The notes under the pieces are model-generated. The model was given only the letters and a program-made list of their open reading frames with translations. It was not told where the DNA came from and searched no databases. Below, in pieces: positions 12,044 to 42,428 of a stretch of 64,000 bases of DNA (position 1 is its first letter; every line of letters begins with the position of its first letter). The position numbers were made by a program, and so were the translations under genes. The stretch comes from Cryobacterium sp. CG_9.6 (GTDB lineage: Bacteria > Actinomycetota > Actinomycetes > Actinomycetales > Microbacteriaceae): positions 1,550,001-1,614,000 of the forward strand of contig NZ_JARXUZ010000001.1 in the NCBI RefSeq assembly GCF_029893365.1, read 5' to 3'.

Positions 12044-12736
12044 ATGGCACGTCACTCTCTTCCCACCGTCGTGGCCATCGACGGACCCGCCGGCAGCGGA
12101 AAGTCGAGCGTTAGTCGCGCTGCCGCCCGCCGCCTCGGCTTCGCCTACCTCGACACCGGTGCCGCATACCGCGCACTCGCGTGGCTGGTGCTCGACCGCA
12201 AGGTCGATACCGAGAACGCGGCCGCCGTGACAGCGGCCCTGGCCGACTTTGACTACTCCATCGGCACCGATCCCGACGAATACTTCGTTCTCGTGGGGGA
12301 GACCGACGTGACCGACGCCATCCGCTCGCCCGAAGTATCGGCGGCTGTCAGCGCCGTGGCCCGGGTTCCCGAAGTGCGTGCGCACCTGACCGAGCTCTTT
12401 CAGAGCCTGGCCAGCAACGTGGATCGGCCCGGTGTTGTGGTGGAGGGACGCGACATCACCACCGTCGTGGCACCCGATGCCGAGGTGCGCATTCTACTCA
12501 CGGCATCGGAAGAGGCTAGAATGGTTAGGCGCTCTGCGGAAATAACCACCCAGTCGGCCGAAACCGTGGCAGATCAGTTGCGATCGAGAGATCGTGCTGA
12601 CTCACAGGTCGTCGATTTTATGAGCGCCGCAGACGGTGTCACCACCGTTGACTCCACCCACCTTGACTTAGAACAGACCATTATTGCGGTCATCGACGTC
12701 ATCCACACACGCACGGCTAGGGCATCGCATGACTGA
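12044..12736 (+). CDS. cmk: Cytidylate kinase
   Basis: 230 aa. Phosphorylates CMP and dCMP. P-loop [17 protein letters not shown] lies at 9-25, then the CMP-binding [13 protein letters not shown] and the [18 protein letters not shown] motif characteristic of Cmk. It lies 3 bp after tyrA, and its end overlaps der, the classic cmk-der pairing. Its pathway neighbour pyrG (CTP synthase) lies upstream in the same block. Confidence 0.95.
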
Positions 12737-14240
12737 GGAATACGACGACACGGGCTCCGCGCTCGATAATGAGTTGGCGGAAAGGCTGGCGAACCTCGAC
12801 GAGGAGCTGGCCGCCAAACGAGCCGAAGCGCTGCGCACCGGCCTCAACGAATACGATCTGGACGACGAGGACTTCGACGTACTGTCGACGATCACCGACG
12901 ACCCGAGCGCCATTCAGTACCTGCCGGCTCTGCCGGTCATCGCGATTGTCGGCCGCCCCAACGTGGGCAAGTCGGCCCTCGTCAACCGTATTCTCGGCCG
13001 CCGCGAGGCCGTCGTTGAAGACACCCCCGGTGTGACGCGTGACCGCGTCACCTACAAGGGTGAGTGGCACGAACGCTACTTCAGCCTCGTCGACACCGGC
13101 GGGTGGGAGCCCGACGCCAAGGGCATCGACGCGTCCGTTGCCGCCCAGGCCGAGATCGCCATCGACCTGTCCGACCTCGTGATGTTCGTCGTGGACTCGA
13201 ACGTGGGGCCCACATCCACTGACGAAGCCGTTGTGCGCATGCTGCGTAAGAGCGGCAAGCCGGTCTTCCTCATCGCCAACAAGGTGGACGACGTTCGCCA
13301 GGAGCCCGAATCGGCCAGCCTGTGGTCCCTCGGACTCGGCCAGCCGTGGCCGGTGTCCGCGCTGCACGGTCGCGGTGTGGCCGACCTGCTCGACGAGATC
13401 CTCACGGTTCTCCCCGAGGTCTCCGCTGTCGCCAAGCAGGAAGTCGGTGGCCCCCGCCGCGTAGCTATCCTCGGCCGCCCGAACGTGGGCAAGTCCAGCC
13501 TCCTCAACAAGGTTGTCGGTGAAGAGCGCGTGGTCGTCAACGACCTCGCCGGCACCACTCGCGACCCGGTTGACGAGCAGGTTGAGCTCGGCGGCAAGGT
13601 GTGGCGTTTCGTGGACACCGCCGGTATTCGCCGTCGCGTGCACCTCGCCCAGGGCGCCGACTTCTACGCCTCGCTGCGCACCAGTGCTGCCCTCGAAAAG
13701 GCCGAGGTCGCCGTGGTTCTCCTCGACGTGACCGAGGTCATCAGCGAGCAGGACATTCGCGTGATCGACCTCGTGATCGAGTCGGGCCGCGCCCTGGTTC
13801 TCGCCTTCAACAAGTGGGACCAGATCGACGACGACCGTCGCCGTTACCTGGAGCGTGAGATCGAGCAGGACCTGGCCCACGTGTCCTGGGCTCCGCGCGT
13901 GAACATCTCCGCCCTCACCGGTCGCCACATGGAAAAGCTGGTTCCGGCCCTCGAGCTCGCGCTCGAGTCGTGGGACACCCGCATCGCCACCGGCAAGTTC
14001 AACGCCTTCCTCGCCGAGCTGGCTGCAGCCCACCCGCACCCTGTGCGCAGTGGTAAGCAGCCTCGCATCCTCTTTGGAACGCAGGCCTCGAGCCGTCCGC
14101 CCACGTTCGTGGTGTTCACCACGGGCTTCCTGGACCCGGGTTACCGTCGTTACATTCAGCGTCGTCTGCGCGAGATCTACGGCTTCGAAGGAAGCCCGAT
14201 CAACCTCAGCATGCGCGTGCGCGAGAAGCGCAAGCGCTAG
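12729..14240 (+). CDS. der: Ribosome-assembly GTPase Der (EngA)
   Basis: 503 aa with two tandem GTPase domains: first G1 [15 protein letters not shown] (about 75-89), second [15 protein letters not shown] (about 251-265), with DTGGW and DTAGIR G3 motifs, NKVDD and NKWDQ G4 motifs and a C-terminal KH-like domain. Der acts in 50S assembly. ATG 12729 overlaps cmk by 8 bp; an upstream in-frame ATG at 12684 lies inside cmk and is unlikely. The ~70-residue acidic N-terminal extension is typical of actinobacterial Der. Confidence 0.96.
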
Positions 14241-14248
14241 TCGCCTGC

Positions 14249-14299
14249 ACCACCTTCGGTGGTCGAGACCCTCACACACTTCGGTGCGTGGGGGGTCTC
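14249..14299 (+). terminator. Hairpins after der
   Basis: Two stem-loops with TTCG-type loops follow der: ACCACC-TTC-GGTGGT at 14249-14263, then GAGACCC (14265-14271) pairing with GGGTCTC (14293-14299) around an inner CAC/GTG stem. No T-run follows, so termination may be weak or factor-dependent. Confidence 0.45.
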
Positions 14300-14310
14300 T
14301 CCCGTTAACC

Positions 14311-14562
14311 GGTGCCATTAGCGCCTTCCCGGGGCACGGGAGGGTGCGTTTGGCGCGAGTCGGCCTGCGGGGGCTCGGCCGGCGGCGTCCCGTGGTGCCG
14401 TTTACACGTTCCCGAGACCCGGGAGGGTGCGTTTGACGCGAGTCAGGGTCGGTGCGTGCGGTTGGCGGCATCGTCCGGTGTCGTTTACACGTTCCCGGGG
14501 CGGGGGAGGGTGCGATTGGCGCGAGTCAGGGTGGATGCGCTCGGCCGGCGGTGTTCCGTGGT
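14311..14562 (+). repeat. 83-bp tandem repeat array, left part (3 units)
   Basis: Units begin with GGTGYC at 14311, 14394 and 14477, exactly 83 bp apart; the next unit begins at 14560 and is cut by the IS21-like element after 3 bp. Each unit has a near-palindrome (ACACGTTCCC ... GGGAGGGTGCG, allowing G-T pairs), then TTTGGCGCGAGTC and a GGC-rich spacer. 83 is not a multiple of three and no frame runs through, so it is non-coding. The array continues at 18913. Confidence 0.85.
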
Positions 14563-14591
14563 TGGCGAGTAGCGCTTTATGGTAGCGCCAG

Positions 14592-14606
14592 TCCAGGTAG
14601 TTGGTA
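14592..14606 (+). repeat. Target duplication of the IS481-like element, left copy
   Basis: TCCAGGTAGTTGGTA, identical to 16340-16354 on the far side of the element. At 15 bp it falls within the range known for IS481-family elements. Confidence 0.9.
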
Positions 14607-16339
14607 TGTGTTGTCTCAGCACAGTGTTTACAGCCTGTCTCACCACCTTGTTGACACTATGTCTCAGGACGTTGTTTACAGGATGTCTCACGACTTTGCA
14701 TACACGTTGAGCGGTGGACGGGATCCTCACGTGGCCTCGGTTTTGATGGAGAGTGCCCAAATCTCTTCCACCTTCCGTCCGCCGCCAGATCATCGAATTT
14801 GATCCTCTTGCCGCCGATGGCCCCAGTATCTCCGAACTCTGCCAACGCCTGAATATCAGCCGGCCGTCGTTTTATAACATCCGGCGACGCTTCCTCCAGG
14901 AGGGAAATAAGGCGCTGAATCCGCACTCGTCGGCCCCGAAGAATCCCGTGCGGACGTTCGACAAGAAGACGACGGAAATTGTCCTGCGCATCCGTGCTCG
15001 GCTGAAAAAGGAGGGCTGGGATAACGGTCCCAAATCGATCTGGTTCACCGGTGTGGACACGAATGAATTCAGTCAACCGGTTCCGTCGGTGGCGACCATC
15101 GCCCGGATCCTGTCATCATCCGGCGTGACGAACTCCAACCCGCGTAAACGGCCACGGACGGCTTGGCTGCGCTTCGCGCGCTCGCCGGCGATGGAGATGT
15201 GGCAGCTGGATGCATTCGAGTATCGCCTGGCGACCAAGCTGGCCCCGAAAGTGACGGTCTACCAGCTGCTGGATGATTCCACCCGTTTCGACGTGGGCAG
15301 TATGTGCTTCGCCGAGCCCGAGAACGGCACCGACGCCATCATCACCCTGAGCGCCGCGATCGACGATCACGGCGTGCCCAAAGAGTTACTCAGCGACAAC
15401 GGGACCGCTTTCAACCAGAGCCGGCGCGGCAACATCTCGGCGACGGAACGCTTCCTGGCCGACCGTGGGTGCTTGGGGATCAGCGGCCGGGGCGGCCACC
15501 CGCAGACGCAAGGGAAAAACGAACGCAGCCACCAAACGCTGCTGCGGTTCCTCGATGCCCGCGCCCCGGAGAGCCTCGAACAGCTCGCCACCCTCATCGT
15601 GGATTACCGCAACTATTACAACTACCGTCGCCGGCACCAAGCGTTGCCCGGCTCTATGACACCGGGCCAGGCCTGGGACGCGGCCGAACACCAGCCCTCG
15701 GACGGAACACCGATCAGTCATAAGGAACTTCAAGCGCGTGCCGACGCCTACCGGGACAAATCACTGGCCAAGCAGGCAGCTGAACCCGACAGTAACAGTG
15801 CCGAGGCTCTGCCCGCGGCCACACTCGCGCAGAGTGAACAGCTGGCGCCGCGCGGCGGCAGACTGCGTGACGGCTCCGACGAGGTCGTCATCACCCGCAC
15901 CAACCCGCAGATCTACTTCCGGGGCCTGAGAATCAAGGTCCCGACCCATCTGGTGGGCAGCTACGAGGTTGTCAGCTCCGAGACTGAATACGCGATGTTC
16001 GACAGGAGCAGCGGCGACGAGAGCATCTATTTCCCGTTGCCGTTGCAGACCGCGTCCACGCGGGACCAGGTCGCGCTTTGGCAGGTGAGAGGAGCCAAAA
16101 TACGTGACCCCAAACCAGCATGGCTGAGCAAGCATTTGTCGTATGAACTCGAGCACTTCCCCGAGGAATAGCCGCACCGCCCGGTCGCACCCGGCGGCTG
16201 CGCGGCCCGCCACCGGGTGTCATCAACGTCATGAGATCGGATGTAAACAACGTCGCGAGCACGAGTGTAAACAACGTCGTAAGACACGTTGTAAACAACC
16301 TCATGAGAGCATGAGTAAACAACCTGATGCGTGAACACA
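14607..16339 (+). mobile_element. IS481-like element (1733 bp)
   Basis: Bounded by TGTGTT ... AACACA ends and 15-bp direct duplications. It has a single transposase gene. Both ends carry arrays of a ~24-bp subterminal motif (TGTCTCA ... TTGTTTACA): four copies on the left (about 14612-14705) and five inverted copies on the right (about 16212-16330). It sits inside the left end of the IS21-like element, between its terminal repeat and istB, so it is the younger insertion. Confidence 0.88.
14753..16171 (+). CDS. IS481-like DDE transposase
   Basis: 472 aa from GTG 14753. An N-terminal helix-turn-helix (ISELCQRLNISRPSFYNIRRRF, about 24-45) precedes an rve/DDE integrase core: D in MWQLDAFEY, D in ELLSDNGTAFN and E in GKNERSHQTLLRFLD, with the NYRRRHQAL segment after it. 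A ~170-residue C-terminal region ends YELEHFPEE. It catalyses cut-and-paste or copy-out transposition of its element. The frame is intact, so the element may be active. Confidence 0.9.
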   Translation: MPKSLPPSVRRQIIEFDPLAADGPSISELCQRLNISRPSFYNIRRRFLQEGNKALNPHSSAPKNPVRTFDKKTTEIVLRIRARLKKEGWDNGPKSIWFTGVDTNEFSQPVPSVATIARILSSSGVTNSNPRKRPRTAWLRFARSPAMEMWQLDAFEYRLATKLAPKVTVYQLLDDSTRFDVGSMCFAEPENGTDAIITLSAAIDDHGVPKELLSDNGTAFNQSRRGNISATERFLADRGCLGISGRGGHPQTQGKNERSHQTLLRFLDARAPESLEQLATLIVDYRNYYNYRRRHQALPGSMTPGQAWDAAEHQPSDGTPISHKELQARADAYRDKSLAKQAAEPDSNSAEALPAATLAQSEQLAPRGGRLRDGSDEVVITRTNPQIYFRGLRIKVPTHLVGSYEVVSSETEYAMFDRSSGDESIYFPLPLQTASTRDQVALWQVRGAKIRDPKPAWLSKHLSYELEHFPEE

Positions 16340-16354
16340 TCCAGGTAGTTGGTA
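16340..16354 (+). repeat. Target duplication of the IS481-like element, right copy
   Basis: TCCAGGTAGTTGGTA, identical to 14592-14606. Removing the element and one copy restores the continuous left end of the IS21-like element. Confidence 0.9.
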
Positions 16355-16376
16355 ACAAATTTCTGACGAGGTGGTA

Positions 16377-16403
16377 GCGGCCCGGGAGTGGTGCCCGGGC
16401 CGC
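16377..16403 (-). terminator. Strong hairpin downstream of istB
   Basis: GCGGCCCGGG (16377-16386) pairs perfectly with CCCGGGCCGC (16394-16403) over a 7-nt loop. It sits just past the istB stop inside the IS21 left end. On the plus strand it is followed by TTT; it could stop istAB transcripts or block read-in from outside. Confidence 0.6.
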
Positions 16404-16410
16404 TTTGGTG

Positions 16411-17178
16411 TTATTCCCAGTAGCTCTCGTGGGCGCGGGCTTGGTCGTTGCGCTGCTGGCGCATGTCGATCTGGCCGAGCTTAATGATGCGGGCGTTGTT
16501 GGCGAGGCGGTTCACGATCGAGTCCGCTGCGACGCGGTCGGGCAGCTCGACGACCCAGTGCGCGGGTCCGGTCTGCGAGGCAATCATCGTCGGGAGGCGG
16601 TGTTCCCGGTTGGCGAGTATCGCGAATAGGTCGTTGCCAGCGTCGCTGTCGATGCCGACGGTGAGGAAGTCATCGATGATGAGCAGGTCGACGTTCGACA
16701 GCTCGTTCAACAGCTTCTGGTGAGCGATGGCATCACCGCGAGCGATGACGAGCTTTCGGGCGAGGTCGTCCATCCGGTAGTAGAGCACCGAATGCTCGCT
16801 CTCGCAGGCGCCGATGGCCAACGCGCAGGCGAGATAGGTTTTCCCGCCTCCGGTGGGTGAAATGATCAGCAGATTCGTCGCATCGGAGCGCCAGTCATGA
16901 GCGGCATAGCGTCGCATCCTGACCTGGGTGATGCCGCGTCCCTCGCGATAGTCGACCTCGGCGATGGTGGCGCCCGGGATCGGGAACGCAGCCTGGCGGA
17001 TGAGCTTGTCGACCTTATTGATCCGGCGAGACTCCAACGCGTCGTCGACCGCGGTGAGGAACAGCTGCTCGGGGGTGAGGATGTCGTTGGCTTCGTCCTG
17101 AATGAGTTCCTCCAGCCGAGTCGCAACATGGGTCACCCGCAGGGCCCGGAACTTGTCGTAATCAACGCTGGTGAACAT
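16411..17178 (-). CDS. istB: IstB, IS21-family helper ATPase
   Basis: 255 aa from ATG 17178 (GTG 17181 would add one residue). Walker A SPTGGGKTYLA lies near residue 109 and Walker B VDLLIIDDF near 166, then sensor-type REHRLPTMIASQ. IstB is the AAA+ regulator that loads and stimulates the IstA transposase. The start shares a base with the istA stop (TGATG), the normal istA-istB coupling. Both genes are intact. Confidence 0.93.
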   Translation of the reverse strand: MFTSVDYDKFRALRVTHVATRLEELIQDEANDILTPEQLFLTAVDDALESRRINKVDKLIRQAAFPIPGATIAEVDYREGRGITQVRMRRYAAHDWRSDATNLLIISPTGGGKTYLACALAIGACESEHSVLYYRMDDLARKLVIARGDAIAHQKLLNELSNVDLLIIDDFLTVGIDSDAGNDLFAILANREHRLPTMIASQTGPAHWVVELPDRVAADSIVNRLANNARIIKLGQIDMRQQRNDQARAHESYWE

Positions 17179-18767
17179 CACTTGACCTCCTCGTCGCGGG
17201 CATAGTGCGAGGCGTCACGCACATAAACATCCGGCATGGTGTCGCGGAACACGACCGTACTGACGTGTTTGCGCGTGGAGGCGGCCGGGACCTTCGCCCG
17301 CGGCTTTTTCGTGTCGCTGTCGATGGCCGCCATCAACCGTTTCAGCGTCGAATAGGTCGGATGCGCGCTGCGGTTCACGAGCTCCTGGCAGGCCGCCTCC
17401 AGCCGTTCCCGGTTGTTCTTGCCAAGCCCGTCGAGGATGTTCTGGCAGGACAGGTAGCCCTGCGCTTCGATCGCCTGGCTGTCCAGGATCTGCTCGATCA
17501 CGGTGACGGTGGCCGGCCCGACGCTGCGCGCCCGGTCGGTGAACCAGCGCCTCGACCACAGCCCGTCGATATCGCGGTGCTGCGGCGGGACATGGTCCGG
17601 CAGGGTCGAGTATTGGCCTTTGCGGCCCGTCAGCCGCGGGTGTTCGCAGATGCTCTCGTGCCCGTCGAAGACCGTCACCCGTGACGACGTCAGCCGAACC
17701 CGCAGCAGCTTGCCCGCCAGAGCGAACGGCACCGAATACCGTTGCGTGTCCGCGGTGACATGGTAATTTCGGGCCGCCTTCAGCTCCTTCCACTCGACAT
17801 CCTCGAACCCCGCATCTGGAAGAGGGCCCAGCAGCTCCCGCTCCTCGCTGTCGAAGCGTTCCCACCGGGTGGTGTCGTCAGCGCGGCGGATGTCATGGTT
17901 GATCTCCCGCACCCGTTCCTCAATCGCCGCGTTCAACTCGCCCAGCGTCGTGAAGACGTCGTCCTCGAGGTAGCCGATGACGCGTTTGTTGACCACGTTC
18001 ACCGCATTCTCGGCAGCCGCTTTATCGCGGGGCTTTTTCACTCTGGCCGGAACAATTGCTGTCTGGTAGTGATCAGCGAGCTGCTGATACCTGGCGTTAA
18101 CGATCCGCTCCGCATCACCCTTATGAGTCTGGTGGGTGGACGTTGTTGGGTTATCCGGCACGACGATCTGCGTCACACCGCCGAAGAACGCGAACGCTTG
18201 AACGTGCGCGTCGAGCCACGCCGGAGACTTCATATCCGCGTAGGCGCGGCAGAACATCAGTCCCGAATACGGCAGCACCGCGACGAACAGAATTGCTCTG
18301 ACGACCTCGCCGGTGATGGTGTCGACGACGTCCATCGTGTCGCCGGCCCAGTCCACCAGCATCGCCCGACCAGGCTCATGGCGCAGCACCGCGACCAGGT
18401 CATGGGTGCGGAGGTAGTCGGTGAACAGGGCGCAGAACTGCGAATACCCATACTTCTTCCCCGCGTCCTTGGTGTCGACGTAACGACGCCACGCCAACAG
18501 CAACGTGAAGTGCCGGTTCGATTTCATCGACGCAAGCACACGCGATAAGTCGGGCTGGTCATACTCCTCCGACACGTTCCGGCGACCGTCGGGGAACCAC
18601 TCGGCCAGCTCGGCGTCGCTAACCGCGACCGTCGAGATCAAACCGCGTCGCTGGACCTCTTGCCGGACCCGGGCCACGTCGCGGTGGGAGCACCCCGCAA
18701 TCTCCACGACCTCGCGGTAACTCCGCCCCTCCAGCAACAACCCCAAGATTCTTCGATAGTCCGCCAT
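17178..18767 (-). CDS. istA: IstA, IS21-family transposase
   Basis: 529 aa from ATG 18767, which has GGGGCGGG just upstream; an in-frame ATG at 18794 would add 9 residues. An N-terminal HTH (SYREVVEIAGCSHRDVARVRQ) is followed by the DDE core: D in MLVDWAGD, D in IVVPDNPTT and E in DKAAAENAVNVV. A C-terminal Mu-type beta segment and a tail reading TKKPRAKVPA follow. It acts with IstB to insert the element with short target duplications, here 6 bp. Confidence 0.93.
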   Translation of the reverse strand: MADYRRILGLLLEGRSYREVVEIAGCSHRDVARVRQEVQRRGLISTVAVSDAELAEWFPDGRRNVSEEYDQPDLSRVLASMKSNRHFTLLLAWRRYVDTKDAGKKYGYSQFCALFTDYLRTHDLVAVLRHEPGRAMLVDWAGDTMDVVDTITGEVVRAILFVAVLPYSGLMFCRAYADMKSPAWLDAHVQAFAFFGGVTQIVVPDNPTTSTHQTHKGDAERIVNARYQQLADHYQTAIVPARVKKPRDKAAAENAVNVVNKRVIGYLEDDVFTTLGELNAAIEERVREINHDIRRADDTTRWERFDSEERELLGPLPDAGFEDVEWKELKAARNYHVTADTQRYSVPFALAGKLLRVRLTSSRVTVFDGHESICEHPRLTGRKGQYSTLPDHVPPQHRDIDGLWSRRWFTDRARSVGPATVTVIEQILDSQAIEAQGYLSCQNILDGLGKNNRERLEAACQELVNRSAHPTYSTLKRLMAAIDSDTKKPRAKVPAASTRKHVSTVVFRDTMPDVYVRDASHYARDEEVK

Positions 18768-18912
18768 AACCCGCCCCTTACTGAAAAGGACCACGCCTGA
18801 TGCGTGGCCCTCTCACAGCAGAGCAGATCACCCCGGCCCGCGCTACCGTGTAACCGGAATCGCGCTACCAGGTCGCCGGACTGGCGCTACCCACAAGCCC
18901 TACTCGCCACGT

Positions 18913-19306
18913 GGTGCCCTCTACACGTTCCCGGGGCTCCGGAGGGTGTAATTGGCGCAAGTCAGGGTCGGTGCGTGCGGTCGGCGGCATCCTCTGGTGT
19001 CGTTTACAGGTTCCCGATACCCGGGAGGGTGTGTTTGGCGCGAGCCTGCCGGGGGCTCGGTTGGCGGGATCCCCAGGTGGTATCGCGGAGGGCGTGTTCT
19101 GCGCGAGTCGGGTTAGGTGAGCCTGGCCGCGAGCATCCGTGGTGGCGTTTGAACCTTCCCGAGGCTGGGGAGGGTGTGTTTGGCGCGAGTCAGAACGTGA
19201 GTGGCTGGCCGGCGGCATTGCCTGGTGTCGTTTACACCTTCCCGGGGTAGGGGAGGGTGTAATTGCCGCGAGCCTGGGCGAGCCAGCGGCAGGTTCCCCA
19301 ACACGA
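18913..19306 (+). repeat. 83-bp tandem repeat array, right part (5 units)
   Basis: Units begin at 18913, 18996, 19079, 19141 and 19224. Spacing is 83 bp except for the unit at 19079, which is 62 bp long because 21 bp including the left hairpin arm are missing. The first unit is the rest of the one cut at 14562. All units point the same way. The best hairpin is ACACCTTCCC pairing with GGGAGGGTGT at about 19234-19260. Confidence 0.85.
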
Positions 19307-19377
19307 TGCCCAACACGATGACCAGCGGATGCCGCGGGCGGGGCGGGGCGGCAGCATCCGTCTCGGAGTGCGAGCCG

Positions 19378-20226
19378 CTACCTGGCCTCCAACGCCACCG
19401 GGCGTGCGGGCAGAATCTCGGCGGTGATCAGCGCACGGTCGTAGGCTACGCGCGCATCATTTTCGCCGAGGAGCGTGCGCTCCACCTCGAGCCCCGTGGC
19501 CTTTGAGCGGATGCTCCGATAGATGCGATTGTGTCGATACACGTCGCCGTCGCGCTCGTAAAAATACGCATCAGCTTCCTGAATGTGAAATTTCACGTCA
19601 AGCGCGCGCGTGGTGCGCAGCTCACCCACGAGATACTCGGCGGTGGTGGTGACCGAAAACTGAAAGTCCTGTTCGGTGTCGTTGCGCACGCGGTAGTCGA
19701 GATAGTTGTACATCACCGAGGTTCCGGTCCCGAACGGAATCTGTCGGTTGAAATCCGGGAACAGGTCGATGTTGTCGTGGTGATGGTGTTCCACGATGGT
19801 GAGTGGACTGTGCAGCACCATCCAGTGGAGCAGATTCGTGAACTGGCAGATTCCGCCACCCATGCCGGACGTTGCCCGGCCGGAGCTGATCGTGAGCCCG
19901 TCTCGATACCCCCGCGCCGCGGTGGTGGACCCCACCAGCTTCCAGAACGAGAATGTTTCTCCCGGCCGAATCACGATTCCGCACACCAGGGGAGCCGCAA
20001 TGCTCAGGTTCACGGCCTTGTTTTCCTGGAGCTGGCCGTCGACGTTGCCGAGTTTTCGCCGAATCAAGGAATTGTGTCGGTACAAAATGACCGGCAGGAG
20101 ATCTGCGCGGCTCGTGGCAAATCGCACCGGGTGCATCAGATTGCGAAGCTGTCGTAGGGCGATCATCTTGCGCACCGAGAGGCGATAGGTGAATGGGGAG
20201 ATGTTGCTAAACAGCCGTCGTGACAT
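19378..20226 (-). CDS. VanW-family protein
   Basis: 282 aa from ATG 20226, which has a strong GGGGGA ribosome site (an upstream start at 20334 lacks one). The VanW core is clear: NLSIAAPLVCGIVIRPGETFSFWKLVG, then GGGICQFTNLLHW and HHHHDNIDLFPDFNRQIPFGTGTSVMYNY. VanW proteins occur in some vancomycin-resistance clusters and widely in Gram-positives, but their biochemical role is unknown. No van genes are nearby. It has no signal peptide and is divergent from the next gene. Confidence 0.85.
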   Translation of the reverse strand: MSRRLFSNISPFTYRLSVRKMIALRQLRNLMHPVRFATSRADLLPVILYRHNSLIRRKLGNVDGQLQENKAVNLSIAAPLVCGIVIRPGETFSFWKLVGSTTAARGYRDGLTISSGRATSGMGGGICQFTNLLHWMVLHSPLTIVEHHHHDNIDLFPDFNRQIPFGTGTSVMYNYLDYRVRNDTEQDFQFSVTTTAEYLVGELRTTRALDVKFHIQEADAYFYERDGDVYRHNRIYRSIRSKATGLEVERTLLGENDARVAYDRALITAEILPARPVALEAR

Positions 20227-20434
20227 CTGCGTCCCCCAAGCGACTCGTTGCCCAGAGCATACGCCGCGCGGAGCGATCGCGAGGGGGCGCGTTCGGGGGT
20301 GTTGCGCGTGGGTGAGTGGGGACATCCGCTTCACAGTGAGTCAGTGACCCGCGGCAACACTCGGCACAGAAATAGTCCAAGAAGATCGGCCAGACTGTTG
20401 GGAGAACCTAAACACGCTCTCTGAAGAGGTAGTC

Positions 20435-40484: not shown

Positions 40485-42428
40485 TTACGGCAGGATGGCG
40501 CTGTTCACGGAGTTCTCCCCGCCCAGCACGATGATGCGGGTGGGGCGCAGCCGGTTCAGCTCGGCCTGAATGACGGCGGGGATGTCGCCAGCCTGAACCA
40601 GCAGCACAGGGGCGCCGTTCCTGGCCGCGACGGGGGCGCCGGAGAGGGCGTCGGGAAAGTTGTGGCCGTTGGCCAGGTAGGCCACCGGGATGCCGGGGGC
40701 GAATGTTGCGGCGGAGATCGCGGCGGAGGTGGCGAACCGGTCGGGCCCGTGCAGGCGGGTGACCCCCTGAGGGGCCAGAGTCGCCAGCTGCGCCTCGACC
40801 AGTTGGTTCACGGAGTTCACTCCGCCGAGCACCACGATGCGCGTCGGGCTCAGGCGCTCGAGTTCGGTCAGGATCTCGGTCGGGATGGCGTCGGGCTGCA
40901 CGAGCAGCACCGGGGCGCCGTTCGTGGCCGCGACGGGGGCGCCGGAGAGGGCGTCGGGGAAGCTGAGTCCGCTCGCCACGTAGACCACTGGCGCGCCCGG
41001 GGCGAAGCTGGCGGACGAGATGGCAGCTGAGGAGGCGAAGCGGTCAGGGCCAAAGAGCCGGGTTACGTTACCCGTGGGGGAGAAGGTGGCCAGCTGCTCG
41101 GCGACCGTGACGTTCACGGAGTTCTCGCCGCCCAGCACAACGATGCGCCCGGGTTTCAGGCGGGATAGCTCGGCCTGGATGATGGAGGGGATGTTGTCGG
41201 CCTGCACGAGCAGCACGGGGGCGCTGTTCTTGGCCGCGACCGGGGCGCCCGAGAGGGCATCCGGGAAATTGGTGCTGCTGGCGACGTACGCCACAGAGAC
41301 TCCCGGGCTGAAGTTCGCGGCGGAGATGGCCGCAGACGTGGCGAAGCGGTCACTGCCCGCCAGGCGGGCCCGCAGGTGGCTCCACCGGCTGGCCGAGTCC
41401 ACCGTGCCGGCCTTCTGGATGTTGTCGTCGCCGATGATTACCGTGGTCTGAACCCCGCCAACGCTGGCCCAGTCGGTCACCGGGCTTGGTGCGCCACCAT
41501 CCACCCGGTAGACCTGACCGGCGGGCTTGGCGGTGACGAAGGTGCCGTCTGCAGGATATCGGCGCAGGTGGCTCCACCGGCCCGCGGCATCCGGTGTTCC
41601 GGCTTTGCGGATGGCGTCGTCGCCAATCGCAACGGTCGGTTGCTCGCCGCTATAGGTTGCCCAGGTTGATACGTAGATCGGGGCGCCGCCCGCGACGCGG
41701 TAAACCTCACCGCTGGGCTTGGCGGTGACGAAGGTGCCGTCGGCGGGATGCTGCGGCAGCTTGGCCCACTGGGCGTCGGAGAGGGTGATCAGCGGCTGCG
41801 GCCCGCCGAAGACCGCCCAGTCGGAGACGTAGACGGGGGCGCCGCCGACGATGCGGTAGACGTGGCCGCCGTACAGCACGAAGACGCCGGGGGAGAGCGG
41901 CGACCCGGCATCCTTGTAGTGGATGTAGCCGGTGGGGGCGGAGGCCTTGATCGTACGCCGGTGATAGGCGCCGTCGGGTACGCCGTTGATGCGCCAGTTG
42001 TACTCTTCGGTGACGATGGTGCCGTCCCTGTTCACCGCCTCCACCCAGGCCAGGTGGCCGTATTCCCACCAGGCAACGGCGCCCACCGCTGGAGTGGTGT
42101 CGACGGTGTAGCCGCGAGCGCGGGCATCCGCGCCCCACCTGCTGGCATCGTTGTAGAACGGCATCTCGAAGCCGTTGCGGGAACTCAGCCGGAAGGCCAC
42201 GAAGGAGGTGCACTCGCGGTTGTACATGCGCCAGGTGTCGAACACGGAGTCGATAGGGATATCGCGCCATTTGGCCGGGTAGTCGTCGGTGCCAGCGTAG
42301 GCGGCGGGGGCTGCTACGAGTACTGAAGCGACGAGAACGAGGGCTGTCAGTAGGGCGGTCAGTGCTCTGCGCAGGCCATGGGGGCTGCGGGGGCGCGGCG
42401 GAGTCTGAGGGCCTGCGTGGATATCCAT
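40485..42428 (-). CDS. Secreted CHAP-domain protein with three CWB2 repeats
   Basis: 647 aa. A signal peptide (LTALLTALVLVASVLVAAPAAYA, about 23-45) precedes a CHAP-type amidase/peptidase domain: Cys in NRECTSFVAFRLSSRNG (near 73) and His in YGHLAWVEAV. Then come three or so ~50-residue repeats with YRVAGGAPIYVSTWA, and three CWB2 cell-wall-binding repeats (AYVASSTNFPDALSGAPVAA and variants, PxRIVVLGGxNSVN). Probably a surface murein hydrolase. It lies alone, convergent with the CoA-transferase genes. Confidence 0.9.
   Translation of the reverse strand: MDIHAGPQTPPRPRSPHGLRRALTALLTALVLVASVLVAAPAAYAGTDDYPAKWRDIPIDSVFDTWRMYNRECTSFVAFRLSSRNGFEMPFYNDASRWGADARARGYTVDTTPAVGAVAWWEYGHLAWVEAVNRDGTIVTEEYNWRINGVPDGAYHRRTIKASAPTGYIHYKDAGSPLSPGVFVLYGGHVYRIVGGAPVYVSDWAVFGGPQPLITLSDAQWAKLPQHPADGTFVTAKPSGEVYRVAGGAPIYVSTWATYSGEQPTVAIGDDAIRKAGTPDAAGRWSHLRRYPADGTFVTAKPAGQVYRVDGGAPSPVTDWASVGGVQTTVIIGDDNIQKAGTVDSASRWSHLRARLAGSDRFATSAAISAANFSPGVSVAYVASSTNFPDALSGAPVAAKNSAPVLLVQADNIPSIIQAELSRLKPGRIVVLGGENSVNVTVAEQLATFSPTGNVTRLFGPDRFASSAAISSASFAPGAPVVYVASGLSFPDALSGAPVAATNGAPVLLVQPDAIPTEILTELERLSPTRIVVLGGVNSVNQLVEAQLATLAPQGVTRLHGPDRFATSAAISAATFAPGIPVAYLANGHNFPDALSGAPVAARNGAPVLLVQAGDIPAVIQAELNRLRPTRIIVLGGENSVNSAILP

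Follow-up and report, generated by a model that had tools for sequence, protein, structure and literature searches.

Short intergenic palindromes of the repetitive extragenic palindrome (REP) type, and the bacterial interspersed mosaic elements (BIMEs), pose an old question: what do such repeats do, as DNA or as RNA? In PMC3733652, REP spacers are described as alike in length and unlike in sequence. For the REP doublets forming hairpins (REPINs) of Pseudomonas fluorescens SBW25, PMC3116915 describes ordered tandem clusters, and distances between neighbours that are non-random and peak at 71, 110 and 184 bp. REPs are also described, in PMC1525189, as binding sites for DNA gyrase and integration host factor (IHF), in connection with supercoiling between convergent genes. 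We describe here a palindrome family in Cryobacterium sp. CG_9.6, a cold-loving soil-type bacterium, which we approached through an array lying between der and a vanW-like gene in a 64,000-nucleotide stretch of its chromosome (contig NZ_JARXUZ010000001.1, positions 1,550,001 to 1,614,000; hereafter the window). Members of the family recur at one preferred centre-to-centre distance, and they do so at loci whose spacers are for the most part unrelated in sequence.

Spacing of the palindromes

The der-vanW array is composed of seven intact palindromes of 46-47 bp and one shortened unit, with a period of 83 bp. Tandem Repeats Finder reports this period at 14326-14562 (score 283) and 19087-19272 (score 189), and the covariance model R1, built from 28 hairpins that include the seven intact window palindromes, scores these at 56-66 bits. 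All units read on the plus strand. Unit 1 (14311-14357; 61.7 bits) has arms of ~21 bp and a 5-bp loop, and is followed at steps of 83 bp by unit 2 (14394-14440; 62.5 bits) and unit 3 (14477-14523; 66.0 bits). Beyond an insertion lie unit 4 (18913-18959; 56.4 bits), unit 5 (18996-19042; 56.7 bits), unit 7 (19141-19187; 60.6 bits) and unit 8 (19224-19270; 63.2 bits). The neighbour steps between intact units are all 83 bp, apart from the insertion gap and a single step of 145 bp (62 + 83), and the distance between the centres of units 3 and 4 across the empty site, with the inserted element and one copy of its target duplication taken out, is 83.0 bp. The degenerate unit 6 (19058-19104, ends approximate), which was recognized by reading the sequence and is not found by R1, has a left arm ~21 bp shorter and gives a step of 62-63 bp. 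The tandem period and the single shortened unit reported by a first-pass annotation of this DNA are thus borne out, while the sequence it described as conserved throughout, GGCGCGAGTC, is exact in three of the eight units and off by one or two bases in the remainder.

The same annotation proposed a repeat family, and copies are indeed dispersed over the genome, which consists of a chromosome (C1; 3,352,313 bases), containing the window, and a second contig (C2; 187,343 bases). That annotation had named a lack of further copies as grounds against its proposal; many are present. An R1 search returned 100 rows at E <= 0.1, with both strands counted; none lies on C2 among the 150 of 3,761 candidates that were scored, a fraction that makes the palindrome and cluster counts lower bounds. 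Unfiltered R1 scans of 19 regions and the window gave 76 palindrome rows, 70 of them full length with at least 25 bits. The remaining six, five below 25 bits and a partial match at chromosomal position 659012, were excluded from the distance, folding and T-run counts. The family therefore comprises at least 70 palindromes in 25 clusters, taking the two halves of the window array as one, or 26 clusters with the partial match.

These 70 palindromes provide 44 neighbour distances below 300 bp, of which 25 are exactly 83 bp and 30 fall within 81-85 bp. The exact value is found at ten loci (286k, 334k, 485k, 758k, 760k, 905k, the window, 2720k, 3310k and 3343k), although the 758k and 760k loci are only 1.2 kb apart, and it also separates the inverted pair 485592/485675. 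The preference for 83 bp is firm. This length is about eight turns of the double helix, and the 14 other distances (62, 72 three times, 73, 91.5, 93, 137, 145, 167, 197, 201, 213 and 243 bp) suggest a whole-turn rule: 11 of them differ by no more than 2 bp from 83 + k x 10.5, where 5.3 would be expected, and 10 do so if the repeat is set at 10.3 or 10.4 bp. When periods between 6 and 20 bp are scanned freely, these 14 distances favour 10.65 bp (scan-corrected P 0.003, and 0.0085 on repeat) and the seven below 110 bp favour 10.45 bp; when each of 9 loci is given a single vote and the period is fixed at 10.5 bp, P is 0.0005. Including weak and partial units raises the number of other distances to 17; 13 of these come within 2 bp of a whole-turn value (~6.5 expected) and the best period is 10.45 bp, with a scan-corrected P of 0.20.

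The sequence between the palindromes behaves differently from its length. The first spacer of the window array (14358-14393) has the 36 bp found in other arrays, and its interior is unrelated to most of them and related to that of the array at chromosomal position 3343662. Within arrays the spacers are related, with identities of 0.49-0.89 against 0.76-0.94 for the palindromes (seven arrays, the window counted as two); the palindrome is the more conserved part in all seven arrays where both were measured, and palindrome identity between arrays is 0.65. A comparison of spacer interiors (positions 6-30) between 11 array groups, to which the 485k locus contributes two, gives a mean identity of 0.353 as against 0.359 in column shuffles (z -0.6). 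Shared descent of the spacers was considered and rejected: full-length spacers do give a signal (z 9.5 and 7.4), which is traced to the outermost bases extending the palindrome and to the window/3343662 pair, and the interiors give none. Spacer length is common to loci where spacer sequence is not.

By rough gene calls, made from codon usage rather than with a gene finder, the palindromes are intergenic and mostly near gene 3' ends, with many clusters beginning 10-40 bp from a stop codon. A tally by reading, made without a background frequency, places ~14 of the 26 clusters between convergent genes, 8 between genes of the same direction and 2 between divergent genes, with 2 unclear. The clusters are also concentrated around dnaA (chromosomal position 201298), where we presume oriC to lie: the dnaA-centred half of the chromosome holds 24 of the 25 clusters (p = 8e-7). 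Counting the partial match at 659012 as well makes this 25 of 26 (p = 4e-7), and 19 of 20 remain once clusters within 15 kb are merged (p = 2e-5). A set of three variant-type palindromes (GACTGGCGCC...GATGGGGGTG) at L062:1848-2311 has spacings of 216 and 201 bp, off the 83-bp pattern.

RNA folding and the state of related genomes

The hairpin that the first-pass annotation saw in each unit is borne out. Folded as RNA, however, entire 83-nt units show no consistent advantage over shuffled sequence (z -2.5, -1.2 and -0.7 for three units on the plus strand and -0.06 for one on the minus strand). None of the 70 palindromes has a run of at least four T in the 12 nt that follow it, whichever strand is read, so that they lack the tail of a Rho-independent terminator; such runs occur inside the 3' arm of 3 of the 70 on the plus and 1 of the 70 on the minus strand. 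The 28 hairpins of this genome are 82.9% paired in true register and 36-57% paired with slid partners, as any palindrome would give, and covariation between their arms is not clearly above shuffle level, between 53 and 232 of 500 shuffles doing as well on the five pair measures. Orientation relative to same-direction neighbour genes is mixed (by eye). Together, the pair measures, the weak whole-unit folds and the mixed orientation led us to reject a reading in terms of RNA structure.

A second type of palindrome in the genus has a different character. The model R2, for which 16 palindromes from C. tagatosivorans, C. psychrotolerans and Cryobacterium sp. N22 were used, matches 43 of 57 genus genomes at E <= 1e-5, with 3 rows in the present one. 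At 24 loci of relatives (L127-L150) these genus-wide palindromes are 62 bp long, with outer arms CGCCGAACyGTGAG..CTCACrGTTCGGCG and often an inner AAAAGC..GCTTTT. The outer GTGAG..CTCAC is present with at most one mismatch at 22 of the 24, and the outer arms are conserved across species. The inner stem covaries across the 21 loci of set A3 (L137, L147 and L149 being left out for length): 17 of 28 pairs have changed on both sides, with 73 cells against 26.5 in shuffles, a value reached in 0 of 500 shuffles, although this figure overstates independence because at least 6 of the 21 loci stand behind one orthologous gene. Seven of the 24 loci (L129, L130, L131, L133, L138, L139 and L141) have their palindrome behind apparently one gene, which we take to be that for inorganic pyrophosphatase. 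At least four T occur in the stem at 15 of the 24 loci, and from their sequences R2-type palindromes are probably bidirectional terminators. Several have the inner core GCACCTTCCC..GGGAAGGTGC of the palindromes described here, and they likewise adjoin gene ends; they differ in their conserved outer arms, covariation and T-runs and in having no second copy within 300 bp at any of the 24 loci. A different kind of tandem growth is seen at L149 (from 1562 onwards, genome G054), where several repeats of the right arm, at ~21 bp (TTGAAACTCACGGCTCGGTGG), stand beside the palindrome.

Orthologous loci were compared using one genome per species. At E <= 0.01, R1 has matches in 20 of the 57 genus genomes, the present one among them. 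A family-wide search at E <= 1e-4 finds at least 2 of 398 genomes, again including this one, a weak negative with 15 candidates scored per genome. Of two pattern scans of named genomes, the first found nothing and the second 17 stretches, 14 in Cryobacterium and one each in Glaciibacter, Streptomyces and Neolewinella, the last two probably by chance. A der match is present in 56 of the 57 genus genomes. Thirty der loci were examined, 29 of them from relatives, and in the latter (up to 1.5 kb of flank each) two core patterns gave no match; T-tailed hairpins stand behind der in several relatives (by eye). Genome G060, whose der is 93% identical, has der facing a vanW-like gene across a short intergenic region with no array (L099, by eye).

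At the 485k locus, where a Cys/Met PLP-dependent enzyme gene faces a shikimate dehydrogenase-type gene, G047 and G003 lack a palindrome and have almost no intergenic DNA; G016 carries a single palindrome, and the present genome carries eight and one weak unit. With the relatives, one locus can be seen in three states: empty, with a single copy, and with an array. At 2720k the gap between flanking matches is 825 bp here and 122 bp in G016, 123 bp in G003, 152 bp in G006, 326 bp in G057 and 527 bp in G047; no clear palindrome of this family is seen in G016 or G003 (by eye), and G006 and G047 have other palindromes. The 708k and 3043k loci have single diverged palindromes common to G016 and this genome.

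Explanations of the spacing

We read these arrays, tentatively and with less than even confidence, as rows of REP-like palindromes that would serve a putative protein as helically phased binding sites. Such a protein would bind the palindromes as double-stranded DNA and, once bound, would contact its neighbours on one face of the helix; spacing would be under selection while spacer sequence drifts. The arrays could then have a role in DNA topology or nucleoid organization, as proposed for BIMEs, and their convergent and dnaA-proximal placement makes such a role fitting. The convergent setting is also reminiscent of REPs in their described capacity as gyrase and IHF sites (PMC1525189). A one-face, duplex-binding protein would be the simplest single account of the fixed centre spacing, the whole-turn tendency, the indifference to spacer sequence and the conservation of sequence rather than pairing. 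We infer that a role at the level of DNA fits best. A family that has retained its spacing after losing spacer sequence amounts to a natural experiment, one pointing towards function at the DNA level; the tendency to whole turns, for its part, yields a sharp prediction for spacer changes of 5 bp versus 10 bp. The more ambitious proposal, that this is an undescribed architectural system in which palindromic sites lie on one helix face at intervals of eight or another whole number of turns, nearly all in the dnaA-proximal half, with a putative assembling protein that would read duplex DNA, is rather unlikely in its entirety; its palindromes may derive from the terminator-type palindromes of the genus by loss of their T-runs.

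Several observations weigh against phased binding sites. Because the spacers of any one array are related, the 25 exact distances are not independent, and there is spacer similarity between the window array and that at 3343662 (identity 0.65). Adding the five weak or partial units brings the scan-corrected P for the whole-turn pattern to 0.20; the distances of 201, 213 and 243 bp fit a 10.5-bp repeat poorly and that of 91.5 bp marginally; and the inverted pair is weak evidence, since the two strands of 485592 score almost alike (53.1 and 50.9). The palindrome census covers 150 of 3,761 candidates. Unfiltered scans of relatives' loci (13 with R1 and 24 with R2) show no second palindrome within 300 bp, and without rows of this palindrome in the sampled relatives the layout is known from one species. 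Finally, the palindromes fold better as RNA than mononucleotide shuffles (mean z -3.1), and for 62 of the 70 it is the plus form that has the greater stability (-25.2 kcal/mol on average, against -18.5 kcal/mol), an excess that may be biased by the model-assigned orientation. Folding stability is compatible with a role as RNA.

Some of these points would follow from plain tandem duplication of an ancestral 83-bp unit, a variable number tandem repeat (VNTR) of REP-like palindromes in which the palindromes were kept, the spacers drifted and 83 bp is the ancestral length only. This account is credible if doubtful: the spacers within arrays are related, the window and 3343662 arrays are alike, the whole-turn pattern loses significance with the weak units, and at 485k the one palindrome of a near relative and the eight here are what growth in place predicts. 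It is harder to reconcile with the tendency of departures from 83 bp towards whole turns, and with an 83-bp distance at ten loci when homology of spacer interiors has gone between most arrays. In ~200 bp of non-coding orthologous flank, a rough comparison with G016 by eye finds several changes of length, and under duplication spacer lengths should therefore have drifted as well. Alternatively, the spacing may reflect mechanism rather than function, if the palindromes are mobile in the manner of REPINs or miniature inverted-repeat transposable elements (MITEs) and each new copy is placed on the same helical face by insertion machinery bound to one already there. The lineage-specific copies at 485k (none in G047 and G003, one in G016), the lack of a clear copy at 2720k in G016 and G003, and the der-vanW region of G060 without an array are consistent with mobility, as are the strongly non-random REPIN distances reported for Pseudomonas in PMC3116915. 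We nonetheless consider it very unlikely. The Y1 transposase PF01797, the one type searched for, is found in none of 57 Cryobacterium genomes (5 of 14 control genomes were positive), on which ground mobility driven by a REP-associated tyrosine transposase (RAYT) was rejected; no target-site duplication was noticed by eye; and the relatedness of spacers within arrays points to duplication.

The first-pass annotation had suggested a part in ending transcription, and bidirectional terminators or stabilizers of mRNA ends would suit convergent 3' ends, given the ~14 of 26 convergent clusters, the many that begin ~10-40 bp from a stop codon, the stable plus-strand hairpin, and the other Cryobacterium 62-bp palindromes with their covariation (17 of 28 pairs, 0 of 500) and stem T-runs (15 of 24). 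For the present palindromes that suggestion is weakened, and we regard it as improbable: T-runs follow none of the 70, arm covariation is not clearly better than shuffles provide, orientation relative to same-direction neighbours is mixed, and rows of eight at 83 bp are left unexplained. The gene der, moreover, has a separate hairpin outside the repeat family (14265-14299, plus strand, by eye), itself without a T-run, which is possibly its own terminator.

Setting of the window array and likeness to known systems

The array occupies a convergent intergenic site, as originally described. Upstream is der (12684-14240 from its predicted start, plus strand), encoding the EngA GTPase with Pfam matches to MMR_HSR1 in two stretches and KH_dom-like; downstream is the vanW-like gene (19378-20334, minus strand; Pfam VanW, 8.3e-38). 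The palindromes match no Rfam family: a search of window positions 13500-20000 with 4227 models gave a single match at E up to 1, sR28 at 16.6 bits (gathering score 39), outside the palindromes.

The split between units 3 and 4 had been ascribed to insertion sequence (IS) elements in the plural; the split is real, and a single IS21-type insertion containing a second transposase gene accounts for it. The element (14563-18909, 4347 bp with the nested IS) has terminal inverted repeats starting TGGCGAGTAG and carries, on the minus strand, IstB (16411-17181) and an IstA-like gene (17178-18794), with Pfam hits PF01695, PF00665 and PF22483. Comparison of the IS ends shows the 6-bp target duplication CGTGGT at 14557-14562 and 18910-18915, the right copy overlapping the outer edge of unit 4; with the two genes and the inverted repeats, this places the element in the IS21 type. 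The nested IS contributes an rve-type transposase gene (14753-16171, plus strand; PF13683, with PF00665 below cut-off). Near its ends are two sets of ~24-bp repeats in opposite orientation (14612-14704 and 16242-16299), possibly transposase binding sites. A second DnaA/IstB-type match at G000:C1:143330-143608, equal in score to the window IstB, is likely to mark another copy of the IS21-type element. Elsewhere in the window, a tandem array at 40503-41352 (period 306 bp, 2.8 copies, score 887) lies in the minus-strand reading frame 40485-42428 and presumably represents a repeated protein domain.

Kinship with the mycobacterial interspersed repetitive units (MIRUs) and VNTRs, which the first-pass annotation had in mind, is not supported. 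Mycobacterial MIRUs occur mainly between co-transcribed genes and have a non-palindromic unit. Intergenic tandem units of similar length are the common ground; the present units are true palindromes, often between convergent 3' ends, and their loci share palindrome and centre spacing rather than the whole unit. The annotation's surmise that the family is undescribed for this group agrees with our literature searches, which left most subscription journals outside their scope: among the papers listed there is none on such repeats in Cryobacterium.

The likeness to REPs and BIMEs of the GTAG and CGTC classes is closer. Those are palindromes of 20-40 bp with G-T pairs, which occur alone or in clusters and for the most part separate genes that converge or run in one direction, and the CGTC class is apparently without a dedicated transposase. 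The present family consists of short repeated intergenic palindromes and shares the preference for convergent or unidirectional neighbours (~14 and 8 of the 26 clusters, on rough calls and without background); no GTAG or CGTC tag was noticed at the palindrome ends when the listing was read by eye. According to PMC1525189, elements of the IS3, IS110, IS4, IS256 and IS5 families target REPs, and the IS21-type element that has inserted at the outer edge of unit 4 is a similar, though single, case. The differences from REPs and BIMEs are a longer palindrome, one preferred centre distance of 83 bp across loci, and departures that tend to whole turns. The SBW25 clusters, as PMC3116915 describes them, repeat near-identical units together with their flanks, and RAYTs are present there, whereas most loci here have unrelated spacers and PF01797 was not found in the 57 genomes. 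The closest precedents found are the REP spacers, alike in length and unlike in sequence (PMC3733652), and the non-random REPIN distances (PMC3116915).

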